A stretch of 64,000 bases of DNA from Phytoactinopolyspora halotolerans (lineage in GTDB: Bacteria; Actinomycetota; Actinomycetes; Jiangellales; Jiangellaceae): assembly GCF_010550675.1 (NCBI RefSeq), contig NZ_JAAGOA010000023.1, forward strand, positions 8,335-72,334, written 5' to 3'. Below the pieces are notes generated by a model that worked only from the letters and a program-made list of their open reading frames with translations, searched no databases and had not been told where the DNA came from. The position numbers and the translations under genes were made by a program. This document shows positions 12,413 to 28,043 of this stretch, piece by piece (the stretch's first letter is position 1; every line of letters starts with the position of its first letter).

Positions 12413-13636
12413 ATGAACGAAGATGTTGGTGACGCGGCGCAAACGACGTCGCCGGTCGCCATCGACGGCGCCTCGCCCTACGGCGCTGGGGCCCTGTTCC
12501 AGATCCTTCGCGACGGCCGGCACCGCACCCGCGCCGAGCTGGCGGCCGAGACCGGCCTGGCCCGCTCCACCGTCACGCAACGCGTCGACGCGCTGTTGAT
12601 GAGCAACCTCATCGGCCCGGCGGATAAGGGCGCGTCCACCGGCGGACGGCCGCCCACCCGGTTCGCCTTCAACCGGGCGGCACGCATCGTGCTGGCCGCG
12701 GACATCGGCGCCACCCACGTACGCGCGGCCGTCACCGACCTCACCGGCGGCATCCTGGCCGAGGCCCGAGAAGAGATCGCGGTGGAGGCCGGACCGGAGA
12801 AGGTGCTCGGATGGGTCGACACGGCCGGGCGCGAGCTCATCGCGGAGGCCGGCCGCACCCTCGACGACCTGCTCGGCGTCGGCGTCGGACTGCCTGGCCC
12901 GGTCGAGCACTCCACCGGGCGCCCGGTCAACCCGCCGATCATGCCCGGCTGGGACGGCTTCGACGTCCAGGGCTACCTGCACGAGCGTTTCCACGCCATC
13001 GTGCTGGCCGACAACGACGTGAACATCATGGCGCTCGGCGAGCACTTCACCCGCTGGAGAGAAGCGCCGCACCTGATGTTCATCAAGGTCGCCACCGGCA
13101 TCGGCTGCGGGCTGATCAGCGACCACCGGCTGCACCGCGGCGCCCAGGGCGCGGCCGGCGACCTGGGCCACATCCAGCTGCCCCGTGGCTCCGACGTGCC
13201 GTGCCGCTGCGGCAACACCGGATGCCTCGAGGCGGTCGCCAGCGGCGCGGCGATCGCCGCCCAGTTGCGCGAGTCCGGCATCGAAGCGAGGTCCAGCCGG
13301 GACGTGGTCGCCTGGGCCCGCAGCGGATCGGTGCAGGCGCTGCAGCTGATCCGGCAGGCCGGTCGTGACCTCGGCGACGTGCTCGCCGCGGCCGTCAGCC
13401 TGTTCAACCCGTCGGTCATCGTCATCGGCGGATCGCTCGCACAGGCGGGGGACCACCTCATCGCCGGTGTCCGCGAGGCCGTCTACCGTCGCTCCCTGCC
13501 GCTGGCCACCCAGCACCTGCGCATCGTGCGCGCGGAGACCGACGACCGGGACGGCATCGTCGGCGCCGCCGTCATGGTGATCGACCACGCGCTCTCCGCC
13601 GCCCAAGTGGACAAGCTCGTCACACCGCCACGATGA
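12413..13636 (+). CDS. ROK-family transcriptional regulator
   Basis: A 407-residue ROK regulator: an N-terminal winged helix (about 30-80, RAELAAETGLARSTVTQRVDAL) followed by a sugar-kinase-like fold. DIGATHVRAAV begins the nucleotide-binding lobe, and the zinc motif CRCGNTGCLE is intact. The protein is divergent from the sugar ABC operon and is its probable local sensor. No ribosome site precedes the ATG at 12413, so the message may be leaderless or the start may differ by a few codons. The stop lies 86 bases from the convergent prenyl synthase gene, with GC-rich inverted repeats between them. Confidence 0.88.
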   Translation: MNEDVGDAAQTTSPVAIDGASPYGAGALFQILRDGRHRTRAELAAETGLARSTVTQRVDALLMSNLIGPADKGASTGGRPPTRFAFNRAARIVLAADIGATHVRAAVTDLTGGILAEAREEIAVEAGPEKVLGWVDTAGRELIAEAGRTLDDLLGVGVGLPGPVEHSTGRPVNPPIMPGWDGFDVQGYLHERFHAIVLADNDVNIMALGEHFTRWREAPHLMFIKVATGIGCGLISDHRLHRGAQGAAGDLGHIQLPRGSDVPCRCGNTGCLEAVASGAAIAAQLRESGIEARSSRDVVAWARSGSVQALQLIRQAGRDLGDVLAAAVSLFNPSVIVIGGSLAQAGDHLIAGVREAVYRRSLPLATQHLRIVRAETDDRDGIVGAAVMVIDHALSAAQVDKLVTPPR

Positions 13637-13702: not shown

Positions 13703-13723
13703 ACCCGGGCGGGCCCCCCGGGT
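13703..13723. terminator. Weak GC-rich hairpin between convergent genes
   Basis: ACCCGGG (13703-13709) pairs with CCCGGGT (13717-13723) across a 7-base loop, touching the stop codon of the prenyl synthase gene. Further GC-rich inverted sequence lies just left of it. There is no T tract. The region separates two convergent transcripts. Confidence 0.25.
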
Positions 13724-14823
13724 CAGCGTGTCCTCCGGCGGACGAGTTCGGCCAGCAGCCGTAGCTCGTCGGCGGCGTCCGGGTCCGGGCCGGCGCGATC
13801 CAGGGCCGCCAGAGCCAGCCGGGATCGCCGCTCGGCCTCGGCCTGCGCCCATCGCCGGCCGCCCGCGCGCTCGACCAGTTCCACCATCCGCACCACCTCG
13901 TCATCCGGCGGGTCCACACCATCGGTGCGCCCGGCCGACGCATACAGCGGACCGCGACCGGGGTAACGTTCGTTCAACTCCGCGCCGGCCTCGTTCTCCG
14001 CCGCCAGCGCGGCGACGATCGGCAACGTCATCTTCCGGCTCGCCAGATCGGAGCCGACCGGTTTGCCGGTAGACGCCGGGTCGCCCCAGATACCCAACAG
14101 GTCGTCAGTGAGCTGGAACGCCACGCCCAGCTGGCAGCCGAACTCCTGGTACAAGGCGGCGACGTCGGCCGAGGCTCCGGCCGCCATGGCACCGAGGCGG
14201 CAGGCGCAGCCGAGCAGCGCGCCAGTCTTGTCCTCCGCCATCGCCAGGCACCCGGCCAGGTCGACCGGTTCGCTCCCGGCCTGCAGCGCCAGGTCGGTCG
14301 CCTGGCCGCGGCACAACCTCAGCAGCGCCCCGCTCAGCACCTCCGCCGCCCGCGGGTCGCTCCTCGCGACCGTGTGCAGCGCGGCGCCGAGCAGCGTGTC
14401 ACCGGTGAGGATCGCCCGGCCGGTGCCGAAGACCGTCCACGCGGCCGGCCGGTGCCGCCGGGTGCGGTCGCCGTCCATGACGTCGTCGTGCAGCAGCGAG
14501 AAGTCGTGCAACAGCTCCACCGCCACGGCCGCCGCCGTCACCGCACCCGTCACCGCGCCTGAGGCGCCCGGACCGGCGCCGGCGGCGCGGGCGCTGGAGA
14601 GGACCAGCGCGGGCCGCAGCGCCTTCCCCGGGCGGCTCCGGCGATGTCCCTCGGCGTCCCACAGGCCGGCGTGGTATCCGGCGATCACCCGGACGCTCTC
14701 CGGAAGCCCGTCCAGCACCGCCCGCAACTCCGGCTCGATCAGCCGCCGCGCCTCGTCCAAGAGCCGATCGGCCGACGTGCGCGGGTCGACGACCACCGCG
14801 GTCCCGTCCCGAGACCGGGTCAC
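13723..14823 (-). CDS. Polyprenyl diphosphate synthase (FPP/GGPP-type)
   Basis: A 366-residue trans-isoprenyl diphosphate synthase. It makes a linear prenyl diphosphate by head-to-tail condensation of isopentenyl diphosphate. The first aspartate-rich motif LLHDDVMDGD is complete. The second is the DDLLGIWGD form common in actinobacterial family members. GKALRPALVL lies near residue 75. The GTG start at 14823 overlaps the previous stop as GTGA, so it is translationally coupled to the phosphatase gene. It is the last gene of the ebo-like cluster and probably supplies the prenyl donor for the UbiA enzyme at 19929-20858. Product chain length is not predictable here. Confidence 0.87.
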   Translation of the reverse strand: MTRSRDGTAVVVDPRTSADRLLDEARRLIEPELRAVLDGLPESVRVIAGYHAGLWDAEGHRRSRPGKALRPALVLSSARAAGAGPGASGAVTGAVTAAAVAVELLHDFSLLHDDVMDGDRTRRHRPAAWTVFGTGRAILTGDTLLGAALHTVARSDPRAAEVLSGALLRLCRGQATDLALQAGSEPVDLAGCLAMAEDKTGALLGCACRLGAMAAGASADVAALYQEFGCQLGVAFQLTDDLLGIWGDPASTGKPVGSDLASRKMTLPIVAALAAENEAGAELNERYPGRGPLYASAGRTDGVDPPDDEVVRMVELVERAGGRRWAQAEAERRSRLALAALDRAGPDPDAADELRLLAELVRRRTR

Positions 14824-16199
14824 CGGGCACTCACCGGCGCACCGGCCAGCTCCAGCAGCAATCCGTACACCTCGGTGGCGGCGATCCGTTCCCGGGCGAC
14901 GTCCTCGTTCGAGCACAGCAGCACGGGCCCGTGTGCCGGGTCGTCCGGTAGCCGCCCGTGGCTGCCGCGGACCGGCGACGGGTCGAGCGGCACCACGTTC
15001 ATCGCGTACCGGAGGCCAAGCTTCTTTCGGGCCAGGCCGCCGGCGGCGCGCAGTTTCACCCATGGATCCGCCGGGTCGAGGAACAGCTCGGCCGGGTCAT
15101 AGCCGGGTTTCTTGTGGATGTCGACGGCCCGGGCGAAGTCAGGCGCCCGGGCGTCGTCCAGCCAGTAGTAGTAGGTGAACCAGGCGTCCGGCTCGGCCAC
15201 CAGCACCAGTTCGCCCGCCCGCTCGTGGTCCAGCCCCTGTGCCGCCTTTCCGTCCGCGTCGAGGACCTCGGCCACCCCGGGCAGCTCGGACACGATGCCG
15301 CGCACCCGGTCCAGATCGGCCGGGTCACGCACGTAGACGTGTGCGACCTGGTGGTCCGCGACGGCGAAGGCCCGCGACGTCCACGGGTCGAGCAGCTCAC
15401 CACTGGCGTTGGTATGCACATGCAGTAGCCCGGCCTGGCGCAGCGCCCGGTTGACGTCCACCGGGCGATGGGCGTGGGTGATGCCGTACTCGCTGAGCAC
15501 GACGACGGTCACGCCCTGGTCGCCGGCGTCGTCCAGCAACGGCGCCAGCACCGCGTCGACGTCGCGGGCCGCGGCCACCGCCTGCGGGCTGTCCGGGCCG
15601 AAGCGTTGCAGGTCGTAGTCGAGATGCGGGACGTAGGCGAGGGTGAGGTCGTGCTCCGGCAGCAGCATCCTGGTGGCCTCGACGATCCACCGCGAGCTCT
15701 CGATCGAGGCCGTGGGTCCCCAGTAGTGGAACAGCGGGAACGTGCCGAGCCGGTCGGTGAGCACCCGATGCAGCGCCGGCGGCCAGGTCCAGCAGTCCGG
15801 CGACTTGCGCCCGTCGGCGTGATACACCGGCCGCGGCGTGATGGTGGTGTCGGTACTCGAGCCCATCGCGTACCACCAGCAGATGTTGGCCACCCGGTAG
15901 CCGGGGCGGCTGCGCCTGATGGTCTCCCACACCTTCTCGCCGCCGACCAGCCGGTTGTGCTGCCGCCAGAACAACACCTCGCCCAGGTCACGGAAGAACC
16001 AGCCGTTCCCGACGATTCCATGCTCGCGCGGCATCGTCCCGGTCAGAAACGTGGACTGGGCCGAACACGTCACCGCGGGCAGAACGGTACCCAGCTCCGC
16101 CGAGAACCCCTCGGTGGCGAGTCTGCTCAATCGGGGCATGTGCGCCAGCAGCCGCGGGGTGAGCCCGACGACGTCGATGACCAGCAACTTCTCACTCAC
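14820..16199 (-). CDS. EboF-like alkaline-phosphatase-superfamily phosphodiesterase
   Basis: A 459-residue member of the type I phosphodiesterase/nucleotide pyrophosphatase family. DVVGLTP at residues 9-15 holds the first metal Asp, LPAVTCSAQSTFLTG holds the candidate Thr nucleophile, and GTMPREHGIVGNGWFF follows. The usual D/S-D-H-G metal motif is replaced by SEYGI (VVVLSEYGITHAH), and PHLDYDLQRFGPDS stands where a metal Asp/His motif is expected. This variation may mark a subfamily. No signal peptide is visible. It overlaps both neighbours by four bases. Within the cluster it may release phosphate or a nucleotide from the product; this is inference. Confidence 0.8.
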   Translation of the reverse strand: MSEKLLVIDVVGLTPRLLAHMPRLSRLATEGFSAELGTVLPAVTCSAQSTFLTGTMPREHGIVGNGWFFRDLGEVLFWRQHNRLVGGEKVWETIRRSRPGYRVANICWWYAMGSSTDTTITPRPVYHADGRKSPDCWTWPPALHRVLTDRLGTFPLFHYWGPTASIESSRWIVEATRMLLPEHDLTLAYVPHLDYDLQRFGPDSPQAVAAARDVDAVLAPLLDDAGDQGVTVVVLSEYGITHAHRPVDVNRALRQAGLLHVHTNASGELLDPWTSRAFAVADHQVAHVYVRDPADLDRVRGIVSELPGVAEVLDADGKAAQGLDHERAGELVLVAEPDAWFTYYYWLDDARAPDFARAVDIHKKPGYDPAELFLDPADPWVKLRAAGGLARKKLGLRYAMNVVPLDPSPVRGSHGRLPDDPAHGPVLLCSNEDVARERIAATEVYGLLLELAGAPVSAR

Positions 16200-17365
16200 A
16201 GCGCCTCCATACCGAGCTCCGACATGCGTCCGGCCGTCCAGCTCAGCTCGGCCGCCAAACCGTCCACCAGGCCGGCGACGTCATCCGGCCGCCGGCCCTG
16301 TGGCAGCACCGACCAGGTGTAGGTCTCCACCTCGACGTGGTCGGTCGCCGCCGTGGCGCCGCCGAAGAGCAGGCCGAGTGTCTGCTGCAGGTGGTCATGG
16401 GTGCCGCCCAGCGGTTCGGCCGGAGGTTCGTGCAGCGGCACGTGGAAGTGCACCCGCCACGGTCCGCGGCCGCGCAGAGCCCGTCGGCCCTCCAGCGCCT
16501 CGGGCAGATCGTCCCGGCCGACGGTGCGGCCGGCGGCATGTTCGCGGGCCTGGTGCAGGAACCGGTCCTCGGCGTAGCGGGTCAGCTCCGCCCTGGTGGC
16601 CGGATCAGCCGGCGCGGCGGCGTGCAGCGCAGCCGACGCCTGGGTCTTGACCACCGGCAGCCCGGCGTCGGCGAGGCGCTGCAGCGCCGCCGCGGGCTCC
16701 TCGAACTGCACCGCCAGATGGCAGGTGTCCAGGCACACCCCGATCCGTTCCCGGTCCACCGAAGCGAGCCGCTCGGCCGCCTCCGTCGTGGTCTCCACGA
16801 TGCAGCCGGGTTCCGGCTCCAGGCCGACCCGGATGGTGCGCCCGGTCTCCGCCTCCAGCTTCTCCAGACCGTCGGCCAGCCGGGCCAAGTGCTCCTCGGC
16901 CTGCCGCTGCCGGTCGGCGTACCACGGGCTGCGCCAGCCCAGCGGCAACGTGGAGATGCTGCCGCGGGCCGCGTCGTCCGGCAGCAGCCGGGCCAGCACG
17001 GCCGCACAGTCCAGGGTGTATTCCAGCCGGGCCGGCTCACACCAGTCCGGCCGGTAGACCGCCTTCTTCACCTCGGGGTCGTGGAAGCCGGCGTACGGGA
17101 ATGCGTTCAGCGTCACGACCTCGAGCCCGTTGCCGTCGAGAGCCTCGCGCAGCCGTCGCAGATCGGCGTCGTGGCCGGCCAGGTGCGCGGCGACCGGCGC
17201 GGGAAGCCACAGGCCGAGCCCGAGCCGCTCGACGCCGAGCCGGGACCGGACCCCGCCGCCATAGGTGCGCACCTGCTCCAGCAGGGCCTCGAGGTCCTCC
17301 GTGGGGTGGACGTTGGTGCAGTACGCCAGGTGGACGACCGTGCCGTCGGGATGCCGCAGCCGCAT
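16196..17365 (-). CDS. EboE-like metabolite traffic protein (xylose-isomerase-like TIM barrel)
   Basis: A 389-residue protein that resembles EboE, a TIM-barrel member of the ebo cluster. The first strand VHLAYCTNVHPTEDLEAL is characteristic. TLNAFPYAGFH, TLPLGWR, VGLEPEPGCIVETT and GVCLDTCHLAVQFE follow and supply candidate metal-binding Glu/Asp/His residues. HFHVPLH and VEVETYTW lie near the end. Its precise reaction is not established; the ebo family is linked to traffic of a metabolite to the periplasm in cyanobacteria. It starts three bases after the TatD gene's stop and overlaps the phosphatase gene by four bases. Confidence 0.8.
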   Translation of the reverse strand: MRLRHPDGTVVHLAYCTNVHPTEDLEALLEQVRTYGGGVRSRLGVERLGLGLWLPAPVAAHLAGHDADLRRLREALDGNGLEVVTLNAFPYAGFHDPEVKKAVYRPDWCEPARLEYTLDCAAVLARLLPDDAARGSISTLPLGWRSPWYADRQRQAEEHLARLADGLEKLEAETGRTIRVGLEPEPGCIVETTTEAAERLASVDRERIGVCLDTCHLAVQFEEPAAALQRLADAGLPVVKTQASAALHAAAPADPATRAELTRYAEDRFLHQAREHAAGRTVGRDDLPEALEGRRALRGRGPWRVHFHVPLHEPPAEPLGGTHDHLQQTLGLLFGGATAATDHVEVETYTWSVLPQGRRPDDVAGLVDGLAAELSWTAGRMSELGMEAL

Positions 17366-17368
17366 CGC

Positions 17369-18262
17369 TCAGCCCTCCTCTGTCCCGGTCGGGCGCTGTC
17401 CGCGCAAGACCGAGTTGCCCTGGAAGGTGGCGGCGGGGTCGGCCCCGTCGGCCCCGTCGGCGCCCGCGTCGTCGATCAGCAGCCGGCCGCTCTGCCCGTA
17501 GAACTCGACCGGGTTGCGCCACAGCACCCGGTCCACGTCGGCGGCGCCGAACCCGTCGTCGAGCATCGCCTGGCCGGTCTTGGCCGTCTTCAACGGGTCG
17601 CTGCGGCCCCAGTCCGCGGCGGAGTTGACGATCATCTTCTCCAGGCCGTACTCGCGCAGGATCGCGACCATCCGGTGCTCGTCCATCTTGGTGTCCGGGT
17701 AGATCGAGAACCCCATCCAGCACCCGGACTCCGCCACCATCCGCACGGTCAACTCGTTGAGATGGTCGACCAGCACCCGCTCCGGCGGCAGCCCGGACTC
17801 GGCGACGAGATCCAGCGTGCGCCGGGTTCCGGCCGCCTTGTCCCGGTGCGGGGTGTGCACCAGCACCGGCAGGTCGTGCTCGGCGGCCAGCTGGAGCTGA
17901 TGGGTGAACGCCTTCTCCTCGTCCGCGGTCATCGAGTCGAACCCGACCTCCCCGACGGCGACCACACCGTCTTTGGCCAGGTACCGCGGCAGCACGTCGA
18001 GCACCTCGACGCAGCGCGGGTCGTTGGCCTCCTTCGGGTTGAGCGCGATGGCGCAGTGGTGCCGGATCCCGAACTGGCCGGCGCGGAACCGCTCCCAGCC
18101 GAGCAACCCGTCGAAGTAGTCGCAGAACGAGCCGACGCTGGTCCGCGGCTGCCCCAGCCAGAACGCCGGCTCGGTCACCGCCCGCACCCCGGCGGCGTAC
18201 ATCGCCTCATAGTCGTCGGTGGTGCGCGAGGTCATGTGGATGTGCGGATCGAAGATGCGCAT
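17369..18262 (-). CDS. TatD-family metal-dependent hydrolase (EboB-like)
   Basis: A 297-residue amidohydrolase-superfamily protein. MRIFDPHIHMTSRT gives the HxH metal pair at residues 7-9. GEVGFDSM supplies the metal Glu, LVHTPHRDK and LVDHLNE the later histidines, and NSAADWGRSDP the final Asp. This is the TatD-like branch found in ebo clusters, not general TatD DNase. The start overlaps the EboA stop by one base (TGATG). About 25 residues at the C-terminus are low-complexity Ala/Asp/Gly and unlikely to be catalytic. Substrate is unknown. Confidence 0.82.
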   Translation of the reverse strand: MRIFDPHIHMTSRTTDDYEAMYAAGVRAVTEPAFWLGQPRTSVGSFCDYFDGLLGWERFRAGQFGIRHHCAIALNPKEANDPRCVEVLDVLPRYLAKDGVVAVGEVGFDSMTADEEKAFTHQLQLAAEHDLPVLVHTPHRDKAAGTRRTLDLVAESGLPPERVLVDHLNELTVRMVAESGCWMGFSIYPDTKMDEHRMVAILREYGLEKMIVNSAADWGRSDPLKTAKTGQAMLDDGFGAADVDRVLWRNPVEFYGQSGRLLIDDAGADGADGADPAATFQGNSVLRGQRPTGTEEG

Positions 18263-18984
18263 CAGGTCTCCCTTCCGGTCGTGGCCGCCTCGGTCCCGGA
18301 TACGCCCGGCGCGGTCCCCGCCGTGCGCAGGTCACGCCCGAGTTCTCCGAATCGGTCCAGCACCCGCCAGGCATCGGCCGGCATCGAGCGGCCGGCGGCG
18401 GCGCGCTCACGGCAGTAGTCCGCCACCATGCGCGCGAGCTCGGTGTCGGCGCGGGCGCCGAGTTCGGCCACCGCGTCCAGGGGAACCCCGACGAACAGGC
18501 ACTTCAGCACGCCCTGACGCCAGCTGTCCGGGTCGAGGTGGCGGGCGCCGTACGGACCCATGGCGGCCGCCACCAGCCGGACGTCGTTGGTCCGCAGCGC
18601 GTCTTCCACCAGCGGCAGTGACACCGCGCTCATCCCCGCCCCGGTGTCCAGGGCGGACAGCGCCCGCAGCACCGCCCGCTTCTCGTCCGCGTCGCCGTAC
18701 CGGTACAGCTGAGCGAGCTCGTGCGTGAACCGTTCCGGGTCGTCCGCCCACATCGACGCGAGCGCCGCGAGCAGGGCCGTGCGTGCCTGATCCTCCAGCC
18801 GGGGACGCTTCACTCCGTCCGGATCGTCCGGATCGGCGGGTCCTCTGGCAACCCGCCGTGCCACGGCCGGAAAGATGGTCGAGATTCGTCGAGGGTCATC
18901 GGCGAGTTCCTGGACCAGCTCGTCCAGGCGTCTGCTCGCTGTGGCGTCCAAGTCGGGCGCGGACCGCGCCTCCCGCGTGCTCAT
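18262..18984 (-). CDS. EboA-domain protein
   Basis: A 240-residue all-helical protein without membrane segments. The stretches RYGDADEKRAVLRAL, LVEDALRTNDVRLVAAA, LDPDSWRQGVLKCLFVGVPL and LARMVADYCRERAAAGR match the EboA family pattern. EboA has no assigned biochemical role. It probably acts as a scaffold or cofactor for the prenyltransferase/TIM-barrel proteins of its cluster. It lies 30 bases after the isomerase gene and overlaps the TatD gene by one base. Confidence 0.75.
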   Translation of the reverse strand: MSTREARSAPDLDATASRRLDELVQELADDPRRISTIFPAVARRVARGPADPDDPDGVKRPRLEDQARTALLAALASMWADDPERFTHELAQLYRYGDADEKRAVLRALSALDTGAGMSAVSLPLVEDALRTNDVRLVAAAMGPYGARHLDPDSWRQGVLKCLFVGVPLDAVAELGARADTELARMVADYCRERAAAGRSMPADAWRVLDRFGELGRDLRTAGTAPGVSGTEAATTGRET

Positions 18985-19014
18985 GCTCCGTACACCTCCA
19001 TGTGGACGAACCGG

Positions 19015-19932
19015 TCAGGTAGCGGCGCTGCGTGCCTCCCTCCGCCCCGGGTTGCCGCGGACGGACTCGGCCTCGGCCAGTGCCGCGGAAAGCGCCTCCA
19101 GCGAGTGCGCGGCCACCACCGGCGCCGCGTGGCCATGCCGCGGAAGCTCCACCGAGGCCAACCCGGTGTAGCCCACGTCGAGCAGCGCGCCCAGCGTCTG
19201 AGGCAGGTCCACCTCGCCGTCGCCGAACTCCAGGTGCTCGTGAACGCCCCGGACCATGTCGTCGAGTTGCACGTTGGCCAGCCACGGCCCGGCCGCCCGC
19301 ACGCACTCCTCCGGCGGATCGGACTCGTTGCAGACCAGGTGGCCGGTGTCGACGGTCACGCCGAGCCGCTCCGGCGAACCCAGCCGCCGGCGCAGCTCCA
19401 GCACGCCGTCCACCCGGTCCACGAACATCCCCGGTTCCGGCTCGAACGCGCAGACCACGCCACGCAGGTCGGCCTCGGCCAGCACCTGGTCCACCCCGGC
19501 CAGCAGCCGGTCCCAGCCCTGCTGGACCGAGGTTCCCGGCGGGAGCGTGCCGGACCAGAACGAGACCGCTTCGGCACCCAGCTCGGCACCGATGCGCACC
19601 GCGCGGCACAGCAGGTCCACCCGCCGCTCCCGCCCGTGCGTGGAGACCAGCGTCGGCTCGTGTTTGTGCCACGGATCCAGGACGTACCGGGCTCCGGTCT
19701 CGATCACCACCGCCAGGCCCAGCTCATCCAGCCGGCGTGCCACCGCGGCGGTCCGCGCCTCCAGATCCGGCGCGAACGGATCGAGGTGCGGGTGGTCCAC
19801 GGTCAGCGCGACGCCCTCGTAGCCCAGCCCGGCGATCACCGCCAGCGCGTCGTCCAGCCGGTGACTGCCGAATCCATTCGTCCCGTACCCGAAGCGCAGG
19901 CTCATGCCTTCTGGTCGCGCTCCGCTCCTCAT
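19015..19932 (-). CDS. Sugar phosphate isomerase/epimerase-like TIM barrel of the ebo-like cluster
   Basis: About 305 residues from the ATG at 19932, which overlaps the UbiA stop as ATGA; a second ATG at 19905 (MSLRFGYGTNGFGSHRL) is the likely mature-sequence equivalent. AP-endonuclease-2 fold signs are VVIETGARYVLDP, AVSFWSGTLPPG, CAFEPEPGMFV (metal Glu), GVTVDTGHLVCNE (Asp/His) and LASVELPRHGH (final Glu). It is distinct from EboE in the same operon, so the cluster encodes two barrels. The first ten codons belong to a short DNA repeat shared with the permease start at 10771. Substrate is unknown. Confidence 0.8.
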   Translation of the reverse strand: MRSGARPEGMSLRFGYGTNGFGSHRLDDALAVIAGLGYEGVALTVDHPHLDPFAPDLEARTAAVARRLDELGLAVVIETGARYVLDPWHKHEPTLVSTHGRERRVDLLCRAVRIGAELGAEAVSFWSGTLPPGTSVQQGWDRLLAGVDQVLAEADLRGVVCAFEPEPGMFVDRVDGVLELRRRLGSPERLGVTVDTGHLVCNESDPPEECVRAAGPWLANVQLDDMVRGVHEHLEFGDGEVDLPQTLGALLDVGYTGLASVELPRHGHAAPVVAAHSLEALSAALAEAESVRGNPGRREARSAAT

Positions 19933-20858
19933 GTCGGCGACACCACCTTCGACGCGAGCCGTGCCACCGGCCCGGCCGCCAGCAGGCCCGCCGCGAGCCC
20001 CGGCGCGCCGGCCCGCGCGGCCAGCGCCGACTGCAGCATGATGATGCCGCGTACCCCGGATCCGGTCGCGCTGCGCACGGTCGCCGCGTCCGGATTGCTC
20101 GCCGCCGCGGCCTGGCTCCGCCCGACCACCGCCGCATACGCGCCGGCCAAGCCGGCACCGGCCCACCGTGCCACTCGCGCGGAACGCGACGACACTGACG
20201 ATGACGATGACCACGACGTCGCCGCCGACGACGCCGATGACGACGACCAGCGCCGCCAGCGCGGCACGGCGGCCACGCCCGCCGACGCGGCGGTTCCGAC
20301 CAGCGCCGTGTACGCCGCAGCGGGCGACGCCCCGTGCACCTCGCCACGGCTGAGCCCGGTGACCGCGGCCGTGTGCACGGTCACCGCCAGGCAGGGCAGC
20401 GCCGCGGGCCGCCATCGCCCACCGGCGCCCAGCAGGACGTCCAATCCTCGCGCGGCGGCCATGACCGCCGGCCCCGCACGGGTGGACTTGGCCGCCAGAT
20501 CGTACGTCCACACCGCTGCCGCAAGCGGCACCGCCACCCGCAACGCCGTCCGCCCGCCGGCGTACGCCGCCACCCCGAGGCCGGCGCCGGTCAACCCGGC
20601 CGCCAGCGCCAACGCCTCCTCCGGTCGGACCCGGCCGGACGGGATGGGCCGCTCCGGCCGCTCGTCCCGGTCCAGGTCGCGGTCAGCGTAGTCGTTCAGG
20701 GCCATGCCGGCCCAGTACAGGCAGGTCGACGCGACCGGCAGCGCCCATGTGCGCCGGCCCAGCGGCCAGCCCGTCGTCGCGGCCGCGCACAACGTGTCGC
20801 CGGGTACGGTGAGTGCCGCGGGCAGCCGCACCAGCTCGGCCGCGTCGCGGGCTCTCAT
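19929..20858 (-). CDS. UbiA-family prenyltransferase (EboC / SCO3242-like)
   Basis: A 309-residue integral membrane prenyltransferase. The first aspartate-rich motif is NDYADRDLDRDERPERPIPSG; the second conserved block is YDLAAKSTRAGP, typical of the EboC branch and different from the usual second DxxxD. AARGLDVLLG follows. These enzymes transfer a prenyl chain from a diphosphate to a polar or aromatic acceptor. Between two predicted helices (about residues 200-231) lies a run of mostly Ser residues encoded by a triplet-rich tract at 20187-20254; another frame across the tract is strongly hydrophobic, so a compensated frameshift or slippage is possible. Both ends overlap neighbours by four bases. 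Confidence 0.82.
   Translation of the reverse strand: MRARDAAELVRLPAALTVPGDTLCAAATTGWPLGRRTWALPVASTCLYWAGMALNDYADRDLDRDERPERPIPSGRVRPEEALALAAGLTGAGLGVAAYAGGRTALRVAVPLAAAVWTYDLAAKSTRAGPAVMAAARGLDVLLGAGGRWRPAALPCLAVTVHTAAVTGLSRGEVHGASPAAAYTALVGTAASAGVAAVPRWRRWSSSSASSAATSWSSSSSVSSRSARVARWAGAGLAGAYAAVVGRSQAAAASNPDAATVRSATGSGVRGIIMLQSALAARAGAPGLAAGLLAAGPVARLASKVVSPT
20187..20254. repeat. GAC/GAT triplet-rich tract inside the prenyltransferase gene
   Basis: The plus strand reads mostly GAC, GAT and GCC triplets. Depending on frame it gives Ser-rich, Asp-rich or Val/Ile-rich peptide. The prenyltransferase frame gives the Ser-rich version in an otherwise ordinary membrane protein. Confidence 0.6.
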
Positions 20859-22051
20859 CGGCGCTCCTCAGCCTCGGCCAGCTCGGCGCACCAGGTGCGC
20901 AACGCCTCCCACTGCTCGCTCAGCGCGTGCACGTCGCTGCCGGCCGGGTCCTTGAAGAAGAAGCCCAACGCCGCCTGCGGGCCGACCCGGCCCGCCTGGT
21001 GCGCGCGAGCCACCAACCGCGCCAGGTCCAGCACCAGCGGCGCCGCCAGCGCCGAGTCACAGCCGGTCCAGGTGAACTGCAGCGACATCCGCGCCCCGAG
21101 GAAGCCCTCGAAGGACACCATGTCCCAGGCCGTCTTCCAGTCGCCCAGGTCGGGCACGTAGTCGATGTGCAGTGGCCCGTCGACCCGGTGCCCGAGGATG
21201 GCTTCCAGACCCTGGCCCTTGGTGGCCGTCTTGCTCACCGCGTTGGCCGGGTCCGCCAGGGTCCGGCCGTCTCCCCCGCCCAGCAGGTTCATCGACGACC
21301 ACGACCGCACCTTCAGCGCGCGCATCGCGAACATCGGCGCGAGCACCGTCTTCAACAACGTCTCACCGGTCTTGCCGTCCGAGCCCGCCCATGGAAGGCC
21401 GACCGTCTCGGCGAGCTCCGCCAGCGCCGGCAGCCGCGGTCCCGGGCTCGGGGTGAACGCCACCACCGAACAGTCCGCGCGCAGCGCCGCATACGCGTAC
21501 AGCGAACTCGCCGGCAGCGGGGACTCGCCCGCGTCCAGCGCCTGCTCCAGGCCGTCCAGCGTCAGCAGCTCCGGAGTGACCCGTACCGGCGGCTCGGTGC
21601 TGGACACATCGACCACCACCACCCGGTCCAGCCCGTTGTCCTCACGGAACGCGCGCAGATCGGCCGTCAGAGCCGCCGCGATCTCGCGTTGTGGCCGCTC
21701 CGACCCGGTCACCCCCGGCCGGATCCGCGCATCGACGCGGGCCAGCTCCGTCGCCAATGCGGCGGGCAGCCCATGCGGCACCACCCCCGCGTCCACCAGC
21801 GCCTCCACCCGCTTCGGCAACGACACGTCCGAGACGTCGTGACCGCCAAACTGGAGCCCGGCCAGCTCCGGCAGGCCGGCGACGGCCACCTCGGGCAGCC
21901 GGCTGACCATTCCCGTCTCGCCCGCCAGCCCGGCCCGGACGGCCAGGGCACCGGCGATGGCCGTGGCCCCCACCGACCCGCGAGCTCCGACGAACCAGAC
22001 CCCGACCCGGGCACCTTCTGGACCTGGAACTGGTGTATTCGTTTCCGTCAC
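20855..22051 (-). CDS. myo-Inositol-1-phosphate synthase family protein
   Basis: A 398-residue inositol-3-phosphate synthase-family enzyme. In characterised members it converts glucose 6-phosphate to inositol phosphate by NAD-dependent oxidation, aldol cyclisation and reduction. VWFVGARGSVGATA is the NAD loop, VDVSSTEPP and GSDGKTGETLLKT are core motifs, and NLLGGGDG and HIDYVPDLGDWKTAWDM cover the active site. The start is the GTG at 22051, with AAGGAGG five bases upstream; longer in-frame openings run into the promoter. It is the first gene of the eight-gene ebo-like operon. It may provide a cyclitol acceptor for the prenyltransferase, standing in for the EboD cyclase found elsewhere. Confidence 0.85.
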   Translation of the reverse strand: MTETNTPVPGPEGARVGVWFVGARGSVGATAIAGALAVRAGLAGETGMVSRLPEVAVAGLPELAGLQFGGHDVSDVSLPKRVEALVDAGVVPHGLPAALATELARVDARIRPGVTGSERPQREIAAALTADLRAFREDNGLDRVVVVDVSSTEPPVRVTPELLTLDGLEQALDAGESPLPASSLYAYAALRADCSVVAFTPSPGPRLPALAELAETVGLPWAGSDGKTGETLLKTVLAPMFAMRALKVRSWSSMNLLGGGDGRTLADPANAVSKTATKGQGLEAILGHRVDGPLHIDYVPDLGDWKTAWDMVSFEGFLGARMSLQFTWTGCDSALAAPLVLDLARLVARAHQAGRVGPQAALGFFFKDPAGSDVHALSEQWEALRTWCAELAEAEERR

Positions 22052-22392: not shown

Positions 22393-23343
22393 TTAGTCGG
22401 CGAAGGCATCACCGGCCTCCTCGGCGGCCTTCTCACTGGCCACCGTCCGCTTCTCGATCTCGTCCCGCACCTGTGCCTTCCGCTGGACCACCTCGGCCTG
22501 GACGCCGCGGCTGAGCGCTCTCGCGGATACCGCCGCGCCGTCGCAGTCGTTGCCGCCGCGGACCCGGTTGTCGGCGACGACGGGCGCGGGGTCATTGCCG
22601 GAGCAGGTGAGGTCCCCGCGGATGACGTTGCCGACCACGGAGGACGGACCGGTGTTGTCCGTCAGCGAGACGTTCCCACCGAACACGTTGAACGCGCAGT
22701 CGGACACCGTGCCGGCGCCGAGCTGGAGCAGCGTGCTGTTGCCGGTGAACGACGCGTCACCGTCGATCTCCGAGGCACAGACCACGCCACCGAGTTCCGC
22801 GCCGCTGATGCTCAGACCGCGCTCCACCACTGTGTCATAGACGTCGGTGAGGAGGTCACCGTCGGTGGTCAGATTCCGCGCCACCCTGCCGGACTCGATG
22901 AACGTCTCACCATCGGCGGACGTGACGTTACCGCCGTGCACCGATCCGAGGCTGTAGTAGAAGCCCGCGTCGGCCGAGTTCACGACGCCGGAGTGTGTGC
23001 TCGTCTCCGAGTACACCCCGAACGCCGAGTTGAGCCTCGTGTTCCCCGCCACCGAGGTGTCCACGACGCTGGCGAAGCCGTTGGGCCGCACCACCAGGTT
23101 GCCTTCGACCGTCGCGTCTTCGAGCAGCAGGTTTCCGTCCGCCCGCACCGTCGCGTTGCCCTGGATGACCACGTCGATCAGTTCGCACGAAGCGCCGGCC
23201 TTCACGACCAGATCTCCGGGCACCGTCACGTTCGACGCCGTCCCGTCGCACACGGTCGTCAAGGCCGCCTGCGACGGCGTCGCCAGGCCTACCGCGCCCA
23301 GACCCGCCACTGCTGAGATGACCACAATCCGTTTGACCCGCAT
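22393..23343 (-). CDS. Secreted protein with repetitive beta-solenoid-like sequence, unknown function
   Basis: A 316-residue exported protein. The start is the ATG at 23343 with AAGGGGAA upstream. Residues 1-26 (MRVKRIVVISAVAG, then ATPSQA) form a Sec signal peptide. The mature protein repeats short valine/asparagine/glycine strands such as NVTVPGDLVVKAG, NATVRADGNLLLEDATVEGNL and GNTRLNSA, as expected for a parallel beta-helix or bactofilin-like solenoid. Two cysteine pairs could form disulfides. The last 45 residues are a charged helix (VVQRKAQVRDEIEKRTVASEK). It has its own terminators on both sides. I do not recognise a named family. Confidence 0.7.
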   Translation of the reverse strand: MRVKRIVVISAVAGLGAVGLATPSQAALTTVCDGTASNVTVPGDLVVKAGASCELIDVVIQGNATVRADGNLLLEDATVEGNLVVRPNGFASVVDTSVAGNTRLNSAFGVYSETSTHSGVVNSADAGFYYSLGSVHGGNVTSADGETFIESGRVARNLTTDGDLLTDVYDTVVERGLSISGAELGGVVCASEIDGDASFTGNSTLLQLGAGTVSDCAFNVFGGNVSLTDNTGPSSVVGNVIRGDLTCSGNDPAPVVADNRVRGGNDCDGAAVSARALSRGVQAEVVQRKAQVRDEIEKRTVASEKAAEEAGDAFAD

Positions 23344-23515: not shown

Positions 23516-26500
23516 CTAGCCGGACAGCTGAGCGATCAACGCCTCAGCCTGATGGACAAGGACATCGCGGGCGGCCGCATCGGAGACATACCTGGAGTCG
23601 GCGGCGGTCCGGATGAACTTCTCCAGCTCGCCGACGGCCTGCTTGGACCTGCCGTCTTCGAGGTGCTTGGCTGCGGTGTCCAGCCGTGCGTGCAGCAGGA
23701 CCGCCGTGCTCGGCCGGTCGATCGCGCCGGTGGCCAGGTAGCCGTCGATGATCGCCCCCAGGTCCGCCAGCGACGTCGTCACCACGAATCCGACGGACGT
23801 GCTGGCCTGCAGACCGGCCTCGTCGGTGACCGTGACGACCAGCTCGTGCTCGCCGACCGAGAGGGTCCACAGCTCCAGCGTCCCCGCCTGCACAGGTTCG
23901 CCGTCGAGCGACGCCTGGACCGCGGCCACGCCGGAGGTGGCGTCGTCGCCGCCGAAGTCGAGCTCCAGTGTCTCGCTCGCGGGATACTCGGCCCCGTCCT
24001 CGACACCGTCCACCGACACGGTCGGCGCCGTCTTGTCGATCTTGATATCGACGGAACCTGCCTCGGAGACGTTGCCACCGTTGTCCGTGGCTCGGTAGTG
24101 CACCGTTGTGGTGCCCTCCGCGCTGACGGTCAGCGGGTTGTTCGCGTTGCTCCAGGTGTTGCCGCCGTCGAGCGACCGCTGGCGGCCGGCCACCGTGCCG
24201 TTGTCGGTGGCGGTGACGGCGACCGAGACGTTGCTCGTGTACCAGCCGTTCGCACCGTTCGGCTCGGCCGGGTTGAGAACCACGCTCACCTCCGGCGGCG
24301 TGACGTCGGCGATGCCGTCCCCGATGAACCGGAACTCGTCCACGTCGACGCCGCTGGTGGAGGTGATGTACAGCCGGCCGCTGCCCTCGGGCACGTCGGT
24401 CAGGTCCGTCTCCACCTCGGTCCAGCCACCGCCGTCCCGGAAGGTCGCCGTCGCGAACGCAGGCGCCTTGGGATCGTTCCAGCGCAGCGACAGCGTGCCC
24501 CGTCCGACGGCACGGGTGACCAGGCCGTCGATGCCGTCGAAATCGACCGGGTCGAAGGCGATCCAGTCGCCGGCCCCGAACGAGGTCACCTTCCGCAGCC
24601 CGCGGGCGGTCTCGTCGTCGACGATCTCGACGCCACTGGTCTCGTCCGCCCATTCGGCCTGCTGTGTCTTCGGGTTCAGGACGATCGCGGCCTCCCCGCG
24701 CGCCGGCGGGACGCCGTTGTGTCCTCCGTCGGTGTACCCGACGACGAGCGCGCCGTAGATGTTCTCGGTCTCGCCGTGCTCGGGGGCGTCAGCCGGCGTC
24801 GGCACGCCGAACGTGCACCCCGATCCGGAACTCAGCGGGTGGGCGTGCTCGTCATGGCCGAGCCCGAAGCTCCACTGGACGCGGGAGCAGACCGGTGTGC
24901 TGCCGTCTTCAGGGTCGTCGACGCCGACCGTCACCGGCACCGCCTGGCCCCAGTCGAAGAACCCGCCGTCCGGTGCGCTCAGGGAGACCGTCGGCGCGAC
25001 GTTGCCGACCGTGATCTGCGCACTGGTCAGGCCGAACTTCCCGGACGGGTCGGTCACCCGCAGCCGGGCGTCGAACTGGCCGAGCTCGGTGTAGGTGTGC
25101 GACACGGTCGCACCCGACGCGTCGAACGATCCGTCGCCGTCGAAGTCCCAGTCGTAGGTGAGCTGCGCTCCCTCCGGGTCACGCGAGCCGGTGCCATCGA
25201 AATCGACGGTCAACGGTGCCTCGCTGCTGGAGATCGGGTCCGCACTGATCCGCGCCTGCGGCGTCTTGTTGCCCTCGGCGTAGTCGACCCGGTAGAGGCC
25301 GGCGTCGGGGTTCTGCCGGAAGAAGCCGTCGCCGTACTCCAGGACGTAGAGCGAACCGTCCGGCCCGAACTCCATGTCCATCGGGTTGTCCCAGATCGGC
25401 TGGACGACCTGGTTCAGGTGTGCGTTCGGGAGGAAGTTCACGATCTCCGTGACCTCGCCGTCGGCGGCGAGATCCGAGGTGAAGACCGCGACGTAGTCCT
25501 GCGAGAACTCGCCGAAGAAGGACTTGCCGTCCCAGTACTCCGGGAACTTCGAGACCGAGGGGCTGTCCGCGTCGTACCGGTACACCGGTCCACCCATCGG
25601 GCCCTGCCCACGGGCCGGACCGAACGCGGTCAGCTCCGGCCACGGCTGGTGATGGTCGTCATCGCCGTAGTACAGCTGCGGAGCCGTCGCCGGCGGTACC
25701 TGGCTCAGCCCGGTGTTCCAGCGGGAGTTGTTGACCGCGCCCGCGTCGCAATCGAACCACTCGCCGGGCGTGGCGGTGGCGAAGTCCCACTCGTTGTAAT
25801 TCGCATTCGGCCCGTGGCAGTAGGGCCAGCCGCCGTTCATCGGCACGGTCGTGCTCTGCCACTCGACGAAGCCCATCGGGCCGCGTTGCTCGTTCGGTGC
25901 GCCGGCGTCCGGACCGTAGTCGCCCCAGACCAGTGCGCCGGTCTCGGGGTCGTAGTCGATCCGGAACGGGTTGCGCAGGCCCATCACATAGATCTCCGGC
26001 CGCGTGCCGTCGGTTCCCGGCTCGAACAGGTTGCCGTCCGGGATCGTGTACGAGCCGTCCTCTTCGACCTTGATACGCAGGATCTTGCCGCGCAGGTCGT
26101 TGGTGTTGCCTGCACCGCGACGGGCGTCGAAGCCGGGGTTCATCCCGGGAGCGTCGTTGTTCGGGGCGAAGCCGTTCGCCCCCGGCGTGCTCGCGGGCGT
26201 GTTGTCGCCCGTGGACAGGTAGAGGTTGCCGTCCTCATCGAAGGCGATGTCGCCGGCCACGTGGCAACACTGCCCACGCTGCACCTCGACCTTGAGGATG
26301 TCCTGCTTGGTGGAGAGATCGAGCGAGTCGCTCTCCTCGTCCCACTTGAACCGGGCCAGCAGGTTGTAGCCCTTCCATTGGTCCCAGTACTGCTCGGTCT
26401 GCCCGGCCGGAAGCGAATTCGGCGCGTTGCCGGACGGGGTCGTCTCCGGGTACGGAGCCTCCATCACCCGTGGCGCGTACAGCAGGTACACCCATGGGTT

Positions 26501-26836
26501 CTGGTCGAAGTCGGGGTCGAGCGCGATGGTCTGCAGACCGTCTTCGGAGTTGGCGTAGACGTCGATGGTGTTGATCAGCTTCGTGATGCCGGTGCCCGGA
26601 TCGGTCAGCCGGATGTCGCCGTTGCGGGCGGTGTGCAGCACCCGCGAATCGGGCAGCACGGCCAAGTCGATCGGCTCACCGGTATTCTTGCTGAGCAGGA
26701 TCTTCTCGTAGTTGTTCCAGTCGAGCGCATGCTCATGTCCCTCATGCGCCGCAGCGGGCGCGGCGACGGCCAGCATGGCCGCCGGCAGAGCCGCGGCCAG
26801 CATGGCACGCACCAGGAACGAAGGCTTAAGATGCAC
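23516..26836 (-). CDS. Secreted PQQ-type sugar dehydrogenase without ThuA
   Basis: An 1106-residue exported protein starting at a GTG (26836) with AGAGGA eight bases upstream. Domain order: signal peptide 1-29; GSDH beta-propeller about 35-515 with vicinal cysteines and probable catalytic His in CCHVAGD near 190; PKD 522-609; a beta domain 610-700; CBM6-like 720-845; Ig-like repeats 848-1020; helical FIMAH-like tail 1025-1106. It shares the propeller and accessory modules with the three ThuA proteins of the window but lacks ThuA. The family is calcium- and PQQ-dependent; no PQQ synthesis genes are in the window. It follows the Tat isomerase gene by 139 bases that contain two hairpins. Confidence 0.87.
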   Translation of the reverse strand: MHLKPSFLVRAMLAAALPAAMLAVAAPAAAHEGHEHALDWNNYEKILLSKNTGEPIDLAVLPDSRVLHTARNGDIRLTDPGTGITKLINTIDVYANSEDGLQTIALDPDFDQNPWVYLLYAPRVMEAPYPETTPSGNAPNSLPAGQTEQYWDQWKGYNLLARFKWDEESDSLDLSTKQDILKVEVQRGQCCHVAGDIAFDEDGNLYLSTGDNTPASTPGANGFAPNNDAPGMNPGFDARRGAGNTNDLRGKILRIKVEEDGSYTIPDGNLFEPGTDGTRPEIYVMGLRNPFRIDYDPETGALVWGDYGPDAGAPNEQRGPMGFVEWQSTTVPMNGGWPYCHGPNANYNEWDFATATPGEWFDCDAGAVNNSRWNTGLSQVPPATAPQLYYGDDDHHQPWPELTAFGPARGQGPMGGPVYRYDADSPSVSKFPEYWDGKSFFGEFSQDYVAVFTSDLAADGEVTEIVNFLPNAHLNQVVQPIWDNPMDMEFGPDGSLYVLEYGDGFFRQNPDAGLYRVDYAEGNKTPQARISADPISSSEAPLTVDFDGTGSRDPEGAQLTYDWDFDGDGSFDASGATVSHTYTELGQFDARLRVTDPSGKFGLTSAQITVGNVAPTVSLSAPDGGFFDWGQAVPVTVGVDDPEDGSTPVCSRVQWSFGLGHDEHAHPLSSGSGCTFGVPTPADAPEHGETENIYGALVVGYTDGGHNGVPPARGEAAIVLNPKTQQAEWADETSGVEIVDDETARGLRKVTSFGAGDWIAFDPVDFDGIDGLVTRAVGRGTLSLRWNDPKAPAFATATFRDGGGWTEVETDLTDVPEGSGRLYITSTSGVDVDEFRFIGDGIADVTPPEVSVVLNPAEPNGANGWYTSNVSVAVTATDNGTVAGRQRSLDGGNTWSNANNPLTVSAEGTTTVHYRATDNGGNVSEAGSVDIKIDKTAPTVSVDGVEDGAEYPASETLELDFGGDDATSGVAAVQASLDGEPVQAGTLELWTLSVGEHELVVTVTDEAGLQASTSVGFVVTTSLADLGAIIDGYLATGAIDRPSTAVLLHARLDTAAKHLEDGRSKQAVGELEKFIRTAADSRYVSDAAARDVLVHQAEALIAQLSG

Positions 26837-26975: not shown

Positions 26976-27932
26976 TCAGCCGCGGAGCGTGGACAGCGCC
27001 TGATAGCTGCGCTCGGCGGCACCGAATGCGCCGCCCCTCTCCTCCGGGGTGCTCGGCGCGTTGTCCTGCTCCCACAGGGCGTAGTGCGGGCCCTTGGCGC
27101 CGATGTCCCGGAAGAAGCTCTGGAAGTCGATGTCGCCCGCGCCGAACTCGACGATGTTGTAGCCGTTGGCCAGGTCCGGCCGGCTTTCCCCGTCCTTGGC
27201 GTGGAACAACGGGTATCGCCGCATGTTGGCCTTGACGTAGTCCGCGGGATCGAATCCCGGCGCGATGTGCTGGCCGACGAACGCCCAGTAGATGTCCATC
27301 TCCAGGTAGACCAGATGCGGGTCCGTCTCGGCCAGCAGGATGTCGTAGAGCCGGACGCTGGGGTCGTCGTTGGCGAAACGGAATTCGTTCTGATGGTTGT
27401 GGTGGTACCACTTGATGCCTCGGGCTGCGGCGGCCGCGCCGAAGCCGTTGAACTCCTCGGCGGCGGCGTGATAGCCGGCGATGGTGCGGTTGGGCGGGCT
27501 GACCGGCTCGTTCGCCGTGCCGATGTACGGCAGGCCGAGCGTCTCGGCGATGTCCAGCTCCTCCTCCATGTTGGAGCGGAAGCTGTTCAACCCGCGGTGA
27601 CCGCCGATGCCCTTGAGCCCGTTGTCGTCCAGCAGCTGCTTGATCTGCGCGGGGGTGATCCCTGGCTCGGCCGGCGAGGTGTAGCCGGCGAACTCCACGT
27701 AGTGGTAGCCCATCCGGGCCAGCTCCTCGAAGACCACCCGGAATCCGAGCGAGCTGACCAGGTTGCGGATGGTGAACAGCTGGATGCCGATCTTTCCGCG
27801 TGGAACCAGGAGGCCGTTGGCCGCATTGGCCATGCCCAGTCCTGGTCCGGCAAACGCCGCTGCGCCCACGGCCGCTGTCGTGCCTGCGACGGCGCGCATG
27901 AACTGCCGCCGGTTGATCTCCGGACGTCCCAT
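26976..27932 (-). CDS. Tat-exported sugar phosphate isomerase/epimerase-like TIM barrel
   Basis: A 318-residue protein starting at the ATG at 27932, six bases after GAGGAG. NRRQFMRAVAG at residues 7-17 is a twin-arginine signal followed by a hydrophobic Ala/Gly stretch and an AxA cleavage region, so it should be folded before export. The mature part is an AP-endonuclease-2 barrel: GIQLFTIRNL, YHYVEFAGYTSP, GIGGHRGLNS, WYHHNHQNEF, YLEMDIYWAFVG (metal Glu/Asp) and PLFHAKDGE (metal His/Asp). Exported members often act on keto-sugars made by periplasmic or cell-surface oxidation; that role is inferred. Its promoter at 28044-28073 matches that of the ebo-like operon. Confidence 0.85.
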   Translation of the reverse strand: MGRPEINRRQFMRAVAGTTAAVGAAAFAGPGLGMANAANGLLVPRGKIGIQLFTIRNLVSSLGFRVVFEELARMGYHYVEFAGYTSPAEPGITPAQIKQLLDDNGLKGIGGHRGLNSFRSNMEEELDIAETLGLPYIGTANEPVSPPNRTIAGYHAAAEEFNGFGAAAAARGIKWYHHNHQNEFRFANDDPSVRLYDILLAETDPHLVYLEMDIYWAFVGQHIAPGFDPADYVKANMRRYPLFHAKDGESRPDLANGYNIVEFGAGDIDFQSFFRDIGAKGPHYALWEQDNAPSTPEERGGAFGAAERSYQALSTLRG

Positions 27933-28043
27933 GTGGATCTCCTCGTTGAGCAATGCCGAACACCAACATGTGCAACGCGCCTGGGGGTCGGCGCGGGATC
28001 ACGGCCCCCTCCCTCGGGCCCCCATTTGACCGGATGATTGGGA

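Follow-up and report, generated by a model that had tools for sequence, protein, structure and literature searches.

The ebo operon has been described in eustigmatophyte plastids, cyanobacteria, Bacteroidota and other groups, where EboA, EboB, a UbiA prenyltransferase, EboE and EboF are encoded in one operon (PMC5133447, PMC6282210). An isoprenoid-cyclitol product was proposed for EboA-F in PMC5133447, the main text of which does not mention inositol; the same source describes actinobacterial EboA as fusions with a triosephosphate isomerase (TIM) barrel and finds EboD missing in two of three Planctomycetes. In addition, a lipid-carrier role was proposed for the cluster in PMC6282210, where ebo mutants build up the scytonemin monomer as scyE mutants do, but in the cytoplasm only. 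The window analysed here, a stretch of 64,000 nucleotides from Phytoactinopolyspora halotolerans (contig NZ_JAAGOA010000023.1, positions 8,335 to 72,334 of the forward strand), holds the same five genes in one operon. Unlike the described operons, it has an inositol-3-phosphate synthase (MIPS) and an additional TIM barrel in place of EboD, the cyclase of the dehydroquinate (DHQ) synthase family, and its UbiA protein belongs to the SCO3242 family and falls below the cut-off for EboC. The ebo cluster received its name in 2016.

Two other systems resemble the locus. UbiA-297 (EboC) of Maribacter is an EboC-like prenyltransferase in an ebo cluster, and Saccharomonospora is among the taxa compared with it, but that cluster is described with EboD, the acceptors assayed were aromatic, and inositol is unmentioned in the main text (PMC9235831). 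In the CDA antibiotic cluster of Streptomyces coelicolor, SCO3242 is labelled 'putative transferase' and SCO3243 'myo-inositol phosphate synthase', the namesake of the window's UbiA family having a MIPS gene next in number (PMC3610822). Other Streptomyces nonribosomal peptide synthetase (NRPS) loci hold the whole cassette, whereas the cassette of the window lies in a sugar-oxidation region. SCO3237-SCO3243 is probably such a whole cassette as well. No paper on a MIPS-form ebo cluster was found in the open-licence literature, and public annotation already places 'inositol-3-phosphate synthase' next to 'eboE'; the arrangement is thus visible in annotation and, as far as literature searches reach, undiscussed.

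We read the locus as a MIPS-type ebo cassette that would make a prenylated inositol-derived lipid, and give this reading a probability of roughly 0.5. Within it, MIPS, together with the additional TIM barrel, very likely stands in for EboD, and a prenylated cyclitol as the product is an even call. The operon (13723-22051) comprises the following genes, beginning at its 5' end.

20855..22051, minus strand: MIPS, 398 amino acids, GTG start; PF07994 (153 bits) and PF01658 (111 bits), each above cut-off
19929..20858, minus strand: UbiA-type prenyltransferase of the SCO3242 family; NF045897 363 bits (cut-off 260), second-best model EboC NF035940 119 bits (cut-off 250); NDxxDxxxD motif kept
19015..19932, minus strand: TIM barrel (AP_endonuc_2) with a ketose-3-epimerase-like fold; PF01261 126 bits; ATG at 19932 (4-base overlap) or 19899
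18262..18984, minus strand: EboA-domain protein; NF035938 168 bits (cut-off 50), the stricter EboA_family model not being reached (80 against 320 bits)
17369..18262, minus strand: EboB, a TatD-like metal hydrolase; PF01026 52 bits (cut-off 27)
16196..17365, minus strand: EboE, a TIM barrel; NF035939 434 bits (cut-off 250)
14820..16199, minus strand: EboF-like type I phosphodiesterase/nucleotide pyrophosphatase; PF01663 221 bits (cut-off 23)
13723..14823, minus strand: polyprenyl diphosphate synthase, GTG start, 4-base overlap with EboF; PF00348 191 bits, in a scan that began slightly upstream of the preferred GTG at 14823

All eight genes that the first-pass annotation had placed here on the minus strand are present, and curated models agree with it. 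Its description of nearly all junctions as 1-4 base overlaps holds for five of seven, the other two being gaps of 30 and 3 bases (the count takes the first of the two candidate starts of the TIM barrel, 19932 and not 19899). A scan for promoters and terminators 5' of MIPS, covering sigma-70 types only, gave no match. EboF is 53% identical to its counterpart in the EboD-type locus L109, and EboB resembles TatD genes from annotated EboD-type clusters. Structural matches of EboE are generic TIM barrels, AsbF and IolI among them.

A scan with the cluster MIPS yielded 66 named loci, which were thus fetched by their MIPS sequence, from Jiangella, Nocardiopsis, Nocardioides, Prauserella, Saccharopolyspora, Amycolatopsis, Streptomyces and others, together with two Planctomycetota; 48 of them are at least 21,000 bases long. 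EboA, EboB, EboE and EboF lie beside the cluster MIPS in 47 of these 48, the exception being the planctomycete L095, and the operon is therefore not a product of chance; gene order is constant across nearly all actinobacterial loci. Actinobacteria need inositol, and the gene could in principle just supply it for mycothiol or phosphatidylinositol while standing beside the ebo genes fortuitously. Against this, the host genome has a second MIPS-family gene (366 amino acids) on a separate contig, presumably of the mycothiol type, the mycothiol INO1 model TIGR03450 (cut-off 638) gives the cluster MIPS only 30 bits, and the adjacency of MIPS and ebo genes is kept across phyla. We consider such a role in inositol supply highly improbable.

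The solved structure closest to the window MIPS is the archaeal MIPS 1u1i, which we take to come from Archaeoglobus. N255, K274, K278, K306 and K367 of 1u1i all recur in the window protein with identical numbering, and are conserved in all 36 aligned MIPS, including six from loci without ebo genes. K278 and K367 are positions that others have mutated, as a comparison of wild-type and mutant chains of 1u1i reveals, and N255, K274 and K306 are presumably catalytic. Judged from these residues, the cluster MIPS looks active.

To view the clusters from the side of the backbone, 396 Actinomycetota genomes were surveyed with EboE, which was found in 27 (26 above cut-off) at 29 loci. At 25 of these loci MIPS is found no further than 12 kb from EboE, and at one an EboD-like gene adjoins EboE, which bears out the expectation that the two cyclases exclude each other in the neighbourhood of EboE across actinobacteria; the MIPS-type ebo cluster is the rule in this phylum and no peculiarity of the window. 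Five EboD queries run against 120 loci matched solely in the five source loci. An EboD gene elsewhere in the host genome had been named as the finding that would speak against replacement. This check came out in favour of replacement: no EboD relative was found in the window, and the genome has just one DHQ-synthase-family match, which lies on another contig (C21) and is presumably AroB. Exactly one such match, again presumably AroB, occurs in 17 of 29 genomes, the host included, and more than one in the other 12. Furthermore, EboD is annotated inside the cluster on plasmids of Azospirillum, Deinococcus, Ketogulonicigenium and Mycetohabitans; the 44 plasmid records that match MIPS include none of the four.

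The additional TIM barrel accompanies MIPS in all 48 long named loci. By similarity it was not found in the EboD-type loci L109, L133, L134, L135 and L136, while relatives that are 45-50% identical lie 5-7 kb from MIPS in three loci outside the ebo system (L149, L150 and L152). Because the TIM barrel tracks MIPS both in ebo loci and in these three clusters, the two look like a portable pair that has been plugged into ebo backbones. Neither this pairing nor the dehydrogenase context described below had been noticed in the first-pass annotation. The idea that MIPS replaces EboD is well supported by the exclusion in Actinomycetota and by an exchange on a Gemmatimonadota plasmid (see below), but in the form of a slot filled by MIPS plus an extra TIM barrel. 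The partner TIM barrel was not found beside MIPS in two Halomarina loci and a Runella locus. At L112, one of the survey loci, MIPS and ebo genes stand without the partner; the same genome holds a second, complete locus. The AlphaFold model of the partner (predicted local distance difference test score, pLDDT, 93.5) best matches the D-tagatose 3-epimerase-like structure 3wqo (Z 32.8, root-mean-square deviation 1.8, 260 residues aligned). Xylose isomerases follow at Z of about 29, only a few units lower, and the fold therefore fits several reactions, an epimerase or a dehydratase among them.

L149, L150 and L152 are plasmids of Hymenobacter, Roseomonas and Methylobacterium in which MIPS and the TIM relative occur and no ebo genes were found. 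The two annotated plasmids among them also hold Gfo/Idh, YcaO-like and PIG-L genes, and the three look like a different, uncharacterised cluster.

Outside Actinomycetota, a plasmid of Gemmatirosa (Gemmatimonadota) encodes EboE, EboB, EboF, UbiA, MIPS and a partner TIM barrel that is 49% identical to that of the window; EboA was not found there, and a search that covered the plasmid record (1.04 Mb) found no DHQ synthase. Another gene of the plasmid encodes a small protein that shares 42% identity, over 93 columns, with a protein of the Deinococcus cluster and that by its position would be EboG-like in the nomenclature of PMC5133447. A tree built from EboB, EboE and EboF of 30 loci places Gemmatirosa among EboD-bearing clusters with support of 100, apart from the actinobacterial MIPS-type loci. 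The Gemmatirosa MIPS, for its part, falls outside a group (support 99) formed by the MIPS of actinobacteria, haloarchaea and planctomycetes. Since a MIPS-bearing backbone groups with EboD clusters, the cyclase has probably been exchanged more than once, although six backbones outside the actinobacterial MIPS group are too few to settle the number of exchanges. Plasmids of the haloarchaea Natronococcus, Halocatena and Halobaculum carry TatD, TIM, UbiA, TIM, MIPS and EboF-like genes; with the window's EboB their TatD-like proteins share 44-46% identity (Halobaculum 46%), and with bacterial EboF their EboF-like proteins share about 36-42%. In these three plasmids EboA was not found and EboE appears as a weak TIM-barrel match, and in two Halomarina plasmids MIPS is present with no ebo gene found. 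The planctomycete loci L095 and L096 have the order MIPS, TIM, UbiA, TIM. That the MIPS-for-EboD swap recurs in other bacteria and in salt-loving archaea, frequently next to sugar-oxidising enzymes, points to a new way toward the ebo product.

A tblastn search at 1e-8 missed UbiA in L085, L104, L105 and L117; the L104 locus did yield a UbiA protein. For UbiA of the EboD-type loci L109 and L133 the top model is EboC, yet below its own cut-off, and the top two models for the Natronococcus protein, EboC and SCO3242, both remain below theirs. A polyprenyl synthase lies within 8 kb of EboE at five of the 25 MIPS-type loci, from four genera (0.26 expected; a single genus, g3, contributes 15 of the 25 loci, so the Poisson values overstate independence). 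This supports a prenyl diphosphate as substrate, and at the same time the synthase, taken by the first-pass annotation for a dedicated one, proves to be an occasional neighbour and no defining part. A role of the window synthase as encapsulin cargo (family 2 polyprenyl transferase, NF041169) was considered and dropped, as it scores 387 bits under a cut-off of 450. Likewise, a serine-rich stretch of UbiA is hydrophobic in another frame, but the relatives listed vary in loop length there, and no frameshift is claimed.

In the proposed pathway, MIPS would convert glucose-6-phosphate to inositol phosphate, the partner TIM barrel and also EboE and EboB might reshape the ring, and EboF could remove or split off the phosphate. 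The UbiA protein would attach a prenyl chain, which the polyprenyl synthase would provide at loci that have one nearby. The resulting lipid, prenylated and derived from inositol, would work on the outer side of the membrane and serve oxidoreductases located there as a carrier, an anchor or an electron acceptor; these oxidoreductases may be glucose/sorbosone dehydrogenase (GSDH) proteins in the case of the window and ScyE in cyanobacteria. Both the prenylated cyclitol and the lipid carrier were already proposed for EboD-type clusters (PMC5133447, PMC6282210). What the MIPS form adds is a firm guess for the first reaction, from glucose-6-phosphate to inositol phosphate, which makes the question of the ebo product testable in culturable actinobacteria. 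If two unrelated cyclases do fill one slot, a cyclitol head group would be their common denominator.

A GSDH gene lies within 12 kb at 19 of the 25 MIPS-type loci, in five of eight genera (at least 0.40 expected), and at none of the four survey loci without nearby MIPS. By genus, the count splits into 12 of 15 in g3 and 7 of 10 in the remainder; the six GSDH-negative MIPS-type loci include two (G157 and G098) whose contig ends less than 12 kb from EboE. Sequence family F1 (71 of 111 loci) was formed by single linkage, and the domain scan covered its members in the window and in L114. PqqC was detected in three of 29 genomes, so that most GSDH-bearing genomes are without this gene of pyrroloquinoline quinone synthesis; scavenging of the cofactor is possible. 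In Natronococcus, a GSDH protein with a C-terminal plastocyanin/azurin (blue-copper) domain (L147:13565-16228) lies beside MIPS, UbiA, EboB and EboF. The Halocatena set is near a ThuA gene, and Halobaculum has neither GSDH nor ThuA. The haloarchaeal sets and the strong link to sugar dehydrogenases suggest a general cell-surface role, wider than scytonemin. A mechanistic tie to oxidoreductases outside the membrane is nevertheless tentative, and in our estimate on the doubtful side.

The same neighbours allow for a locus of keto-sugar utilisation, in which MIPS and the TIM barrels would process sugar intermediates and no lipid would be made. The window holds ThuA-GSDH proteins, a 3-keto-disaccharide hydrolase domain, Gfo/Idh/MocA and sugar-binding proteins, ROK regulators and several TIM barrels, Gemmatirosa has several such genes, and the GSDH count points the same way. 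Sugar catabolism, however, leaves no evident role for UbiA in nearly all loci or for the polyprenyl synthases at five of 25; MIPS is a biosynthetic enzyme, and some loci lie inside biosynthetic clusters without annotated sugar-oxidation genes. On balance, a purely catabolic function seems unlikely.

Several observations weigh against a MIPS-type cassette that makes a prenylated inositol-derived lipid. By domain search, four survey loci have no MIPS within 12 kb of EboE: G305, the second G127 locus, G339 and G248. G305 is of the EboD type, a DHQ-synthase-family gene with both DHQ synthase domains adjoining EboE; it is the sole survey genome with a DHQ-synthase-like gene beside EboE, and no PF07994 match was found in it, which in itself favours exclusion of the two cyclases. 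In G127, MIPS sits at the other EboE locus of the genome, and in G248 EboE is split in two pieces. G339 is a 26th locus by its truncated MIPS, and is kept outside the 25 MIPS-type loci. MIPS relatives also occur at six plasmid loci with no detected ebo gene, the final lysine of the motif DGKTGETLxK is an arginine in six aligned MIPS, and the Ketogulonicigenium EboD cluster (L135) includes a separate TIM-barrel gene, annotated as a sugar phosphate isomerase and dissimilar to that of the window. A Streptomyces plasmid has EboE alone in a type II polyketide synthase (PKS) region (L140:10989-12167), where no other ebo gene was found. UbiA-297, the one EboC homologue assayed, farnesylates quinoline acids, and aromatic acceptors alone are described for it in the accessible text (PMC9235831); UbiA activity confined to aromatic acceptors was the second finding that the first-pass annotation had named as speaking against its reading. 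In the literature consulted, no ebo enzyme is reported to act on a cyclitol; moreover, the rings made by MIPS and EboD are presumably unlike, so their end products may differ. Finally, an annotated sugar dehydrogenase lies within about 9 kb in one of the three haloarchaeal sets (Natronococcus), and some Streptomyces cassettes adjoin NRPS, type II PKS or ScyD/ScyE genes with no GSDH annotated in the stretch; on account of these GSDH-poor sets and biosynthetic-cluster loci, the sugar link is not universal.

Two of the four exceptional loci show further features. At the second EboE locus of G127 (L102), where MIPS is absent, an apparent flavin-dependent (FAD) oxidoreductase gene lies upstream of UbiA. 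In G339 (L107:14422-14772), the MIPS beside UbiA is truncated to 116 amino acids, and a full MIPS and a GSDH gene are found on another contig.

The Streptomyces neighbourhoods, where multicopper-oxidase genes accompany ScyD/ScyE, favour a role as an export helper, in which the cassette would make a glycolipid-like carrier that moves varied secondary metabolites across the membrane, as proposed for scytonemin, its cargo changing with the neighbours (an NRPS product, an aromatic polyketide or scytonemin). The window and many other loci, in contrast, sit among genes of sugar transport and oxidation, and we regard export as the principal function as rather unlikely; it is compatible with a prenylated inositol-derived lipid, since the same lipid could serve both. 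The trait shared by sugar, NRPS, PKS and Scy neighbours may be oxidation or export outside the membrane.

In a bolder version, the product of both kinds of ebo cluster would be a membrane lipid dedicated to redox or carrier duty, built on a sugar-derived ring with a quinol-like head and serving GSDH- or ScyE-type oxidoreductases outside the membrane. MIPS with its TIM barrel, or EboD, would build the ring, TIM barrels would epimerise or dehydrate it, and UbiA would prenylate it; the lipid would then take electrons from the outside oxidoreductases or pass substrate to them. This fits the monomer build-up common to ebo and scyE mutants, the nearby sugar dehydrogenases and multicopper oxidases, and the haloarchaeal sets. 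That the monomer is located differently in ebo mutants counts against the electron-acceptor variant, and we hold the idea as a whole to be quite improbable.

In three Streptomyces plasmids, a gene of the ScyD/ScyE family lies directly upstream of the cassette (L132:3963-5162, L138:5221-6423 and L141:5026-6225) and a multicopper oxidase downstream of it; the L132 protein matches NF033206 at 253 bits (cut-off 80).

The immediate neighbours of the operon in the window are as follows.

12413..13636, plus strand: ROK-family regulator (PF00480), convergent with the operon end
22393..23343, minus strand: protein without a Pfam match, next upstream of MIPS, its N-terminus suggesting secretion
23516..26836, minus strand: protein of 1106 amino acids with GSDH (PF07995, 105 bits), PKD, CBM6 and FIMAH domains
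26976..27953, minus strand: TIM barrel (PF01261, 52 bits) with an N-terminus that resembles a twin-arginine signal

The last of these belongs to sequence family F2, which is found near 50 of 111 loci. Further along, two large proteins with ThuA, GSDH, PKD and CBM6 domains (29896-34845 and 35403-39593) have identical first 30 residues, as after a tandem duplication, and the second has the 3-keto-disaccharide hydrolase domain near its end. A third ThuA-GSDH protein of 1979 amino acids, with CBM6, PKD, GH43_C2 and FIMAH domains, lies at 296-6235. In the planctomycetes, the set is followed by one or two FG-GAP repeat proteins of about 980 amino acids (L095:14106-20060, L096:14440-17370).

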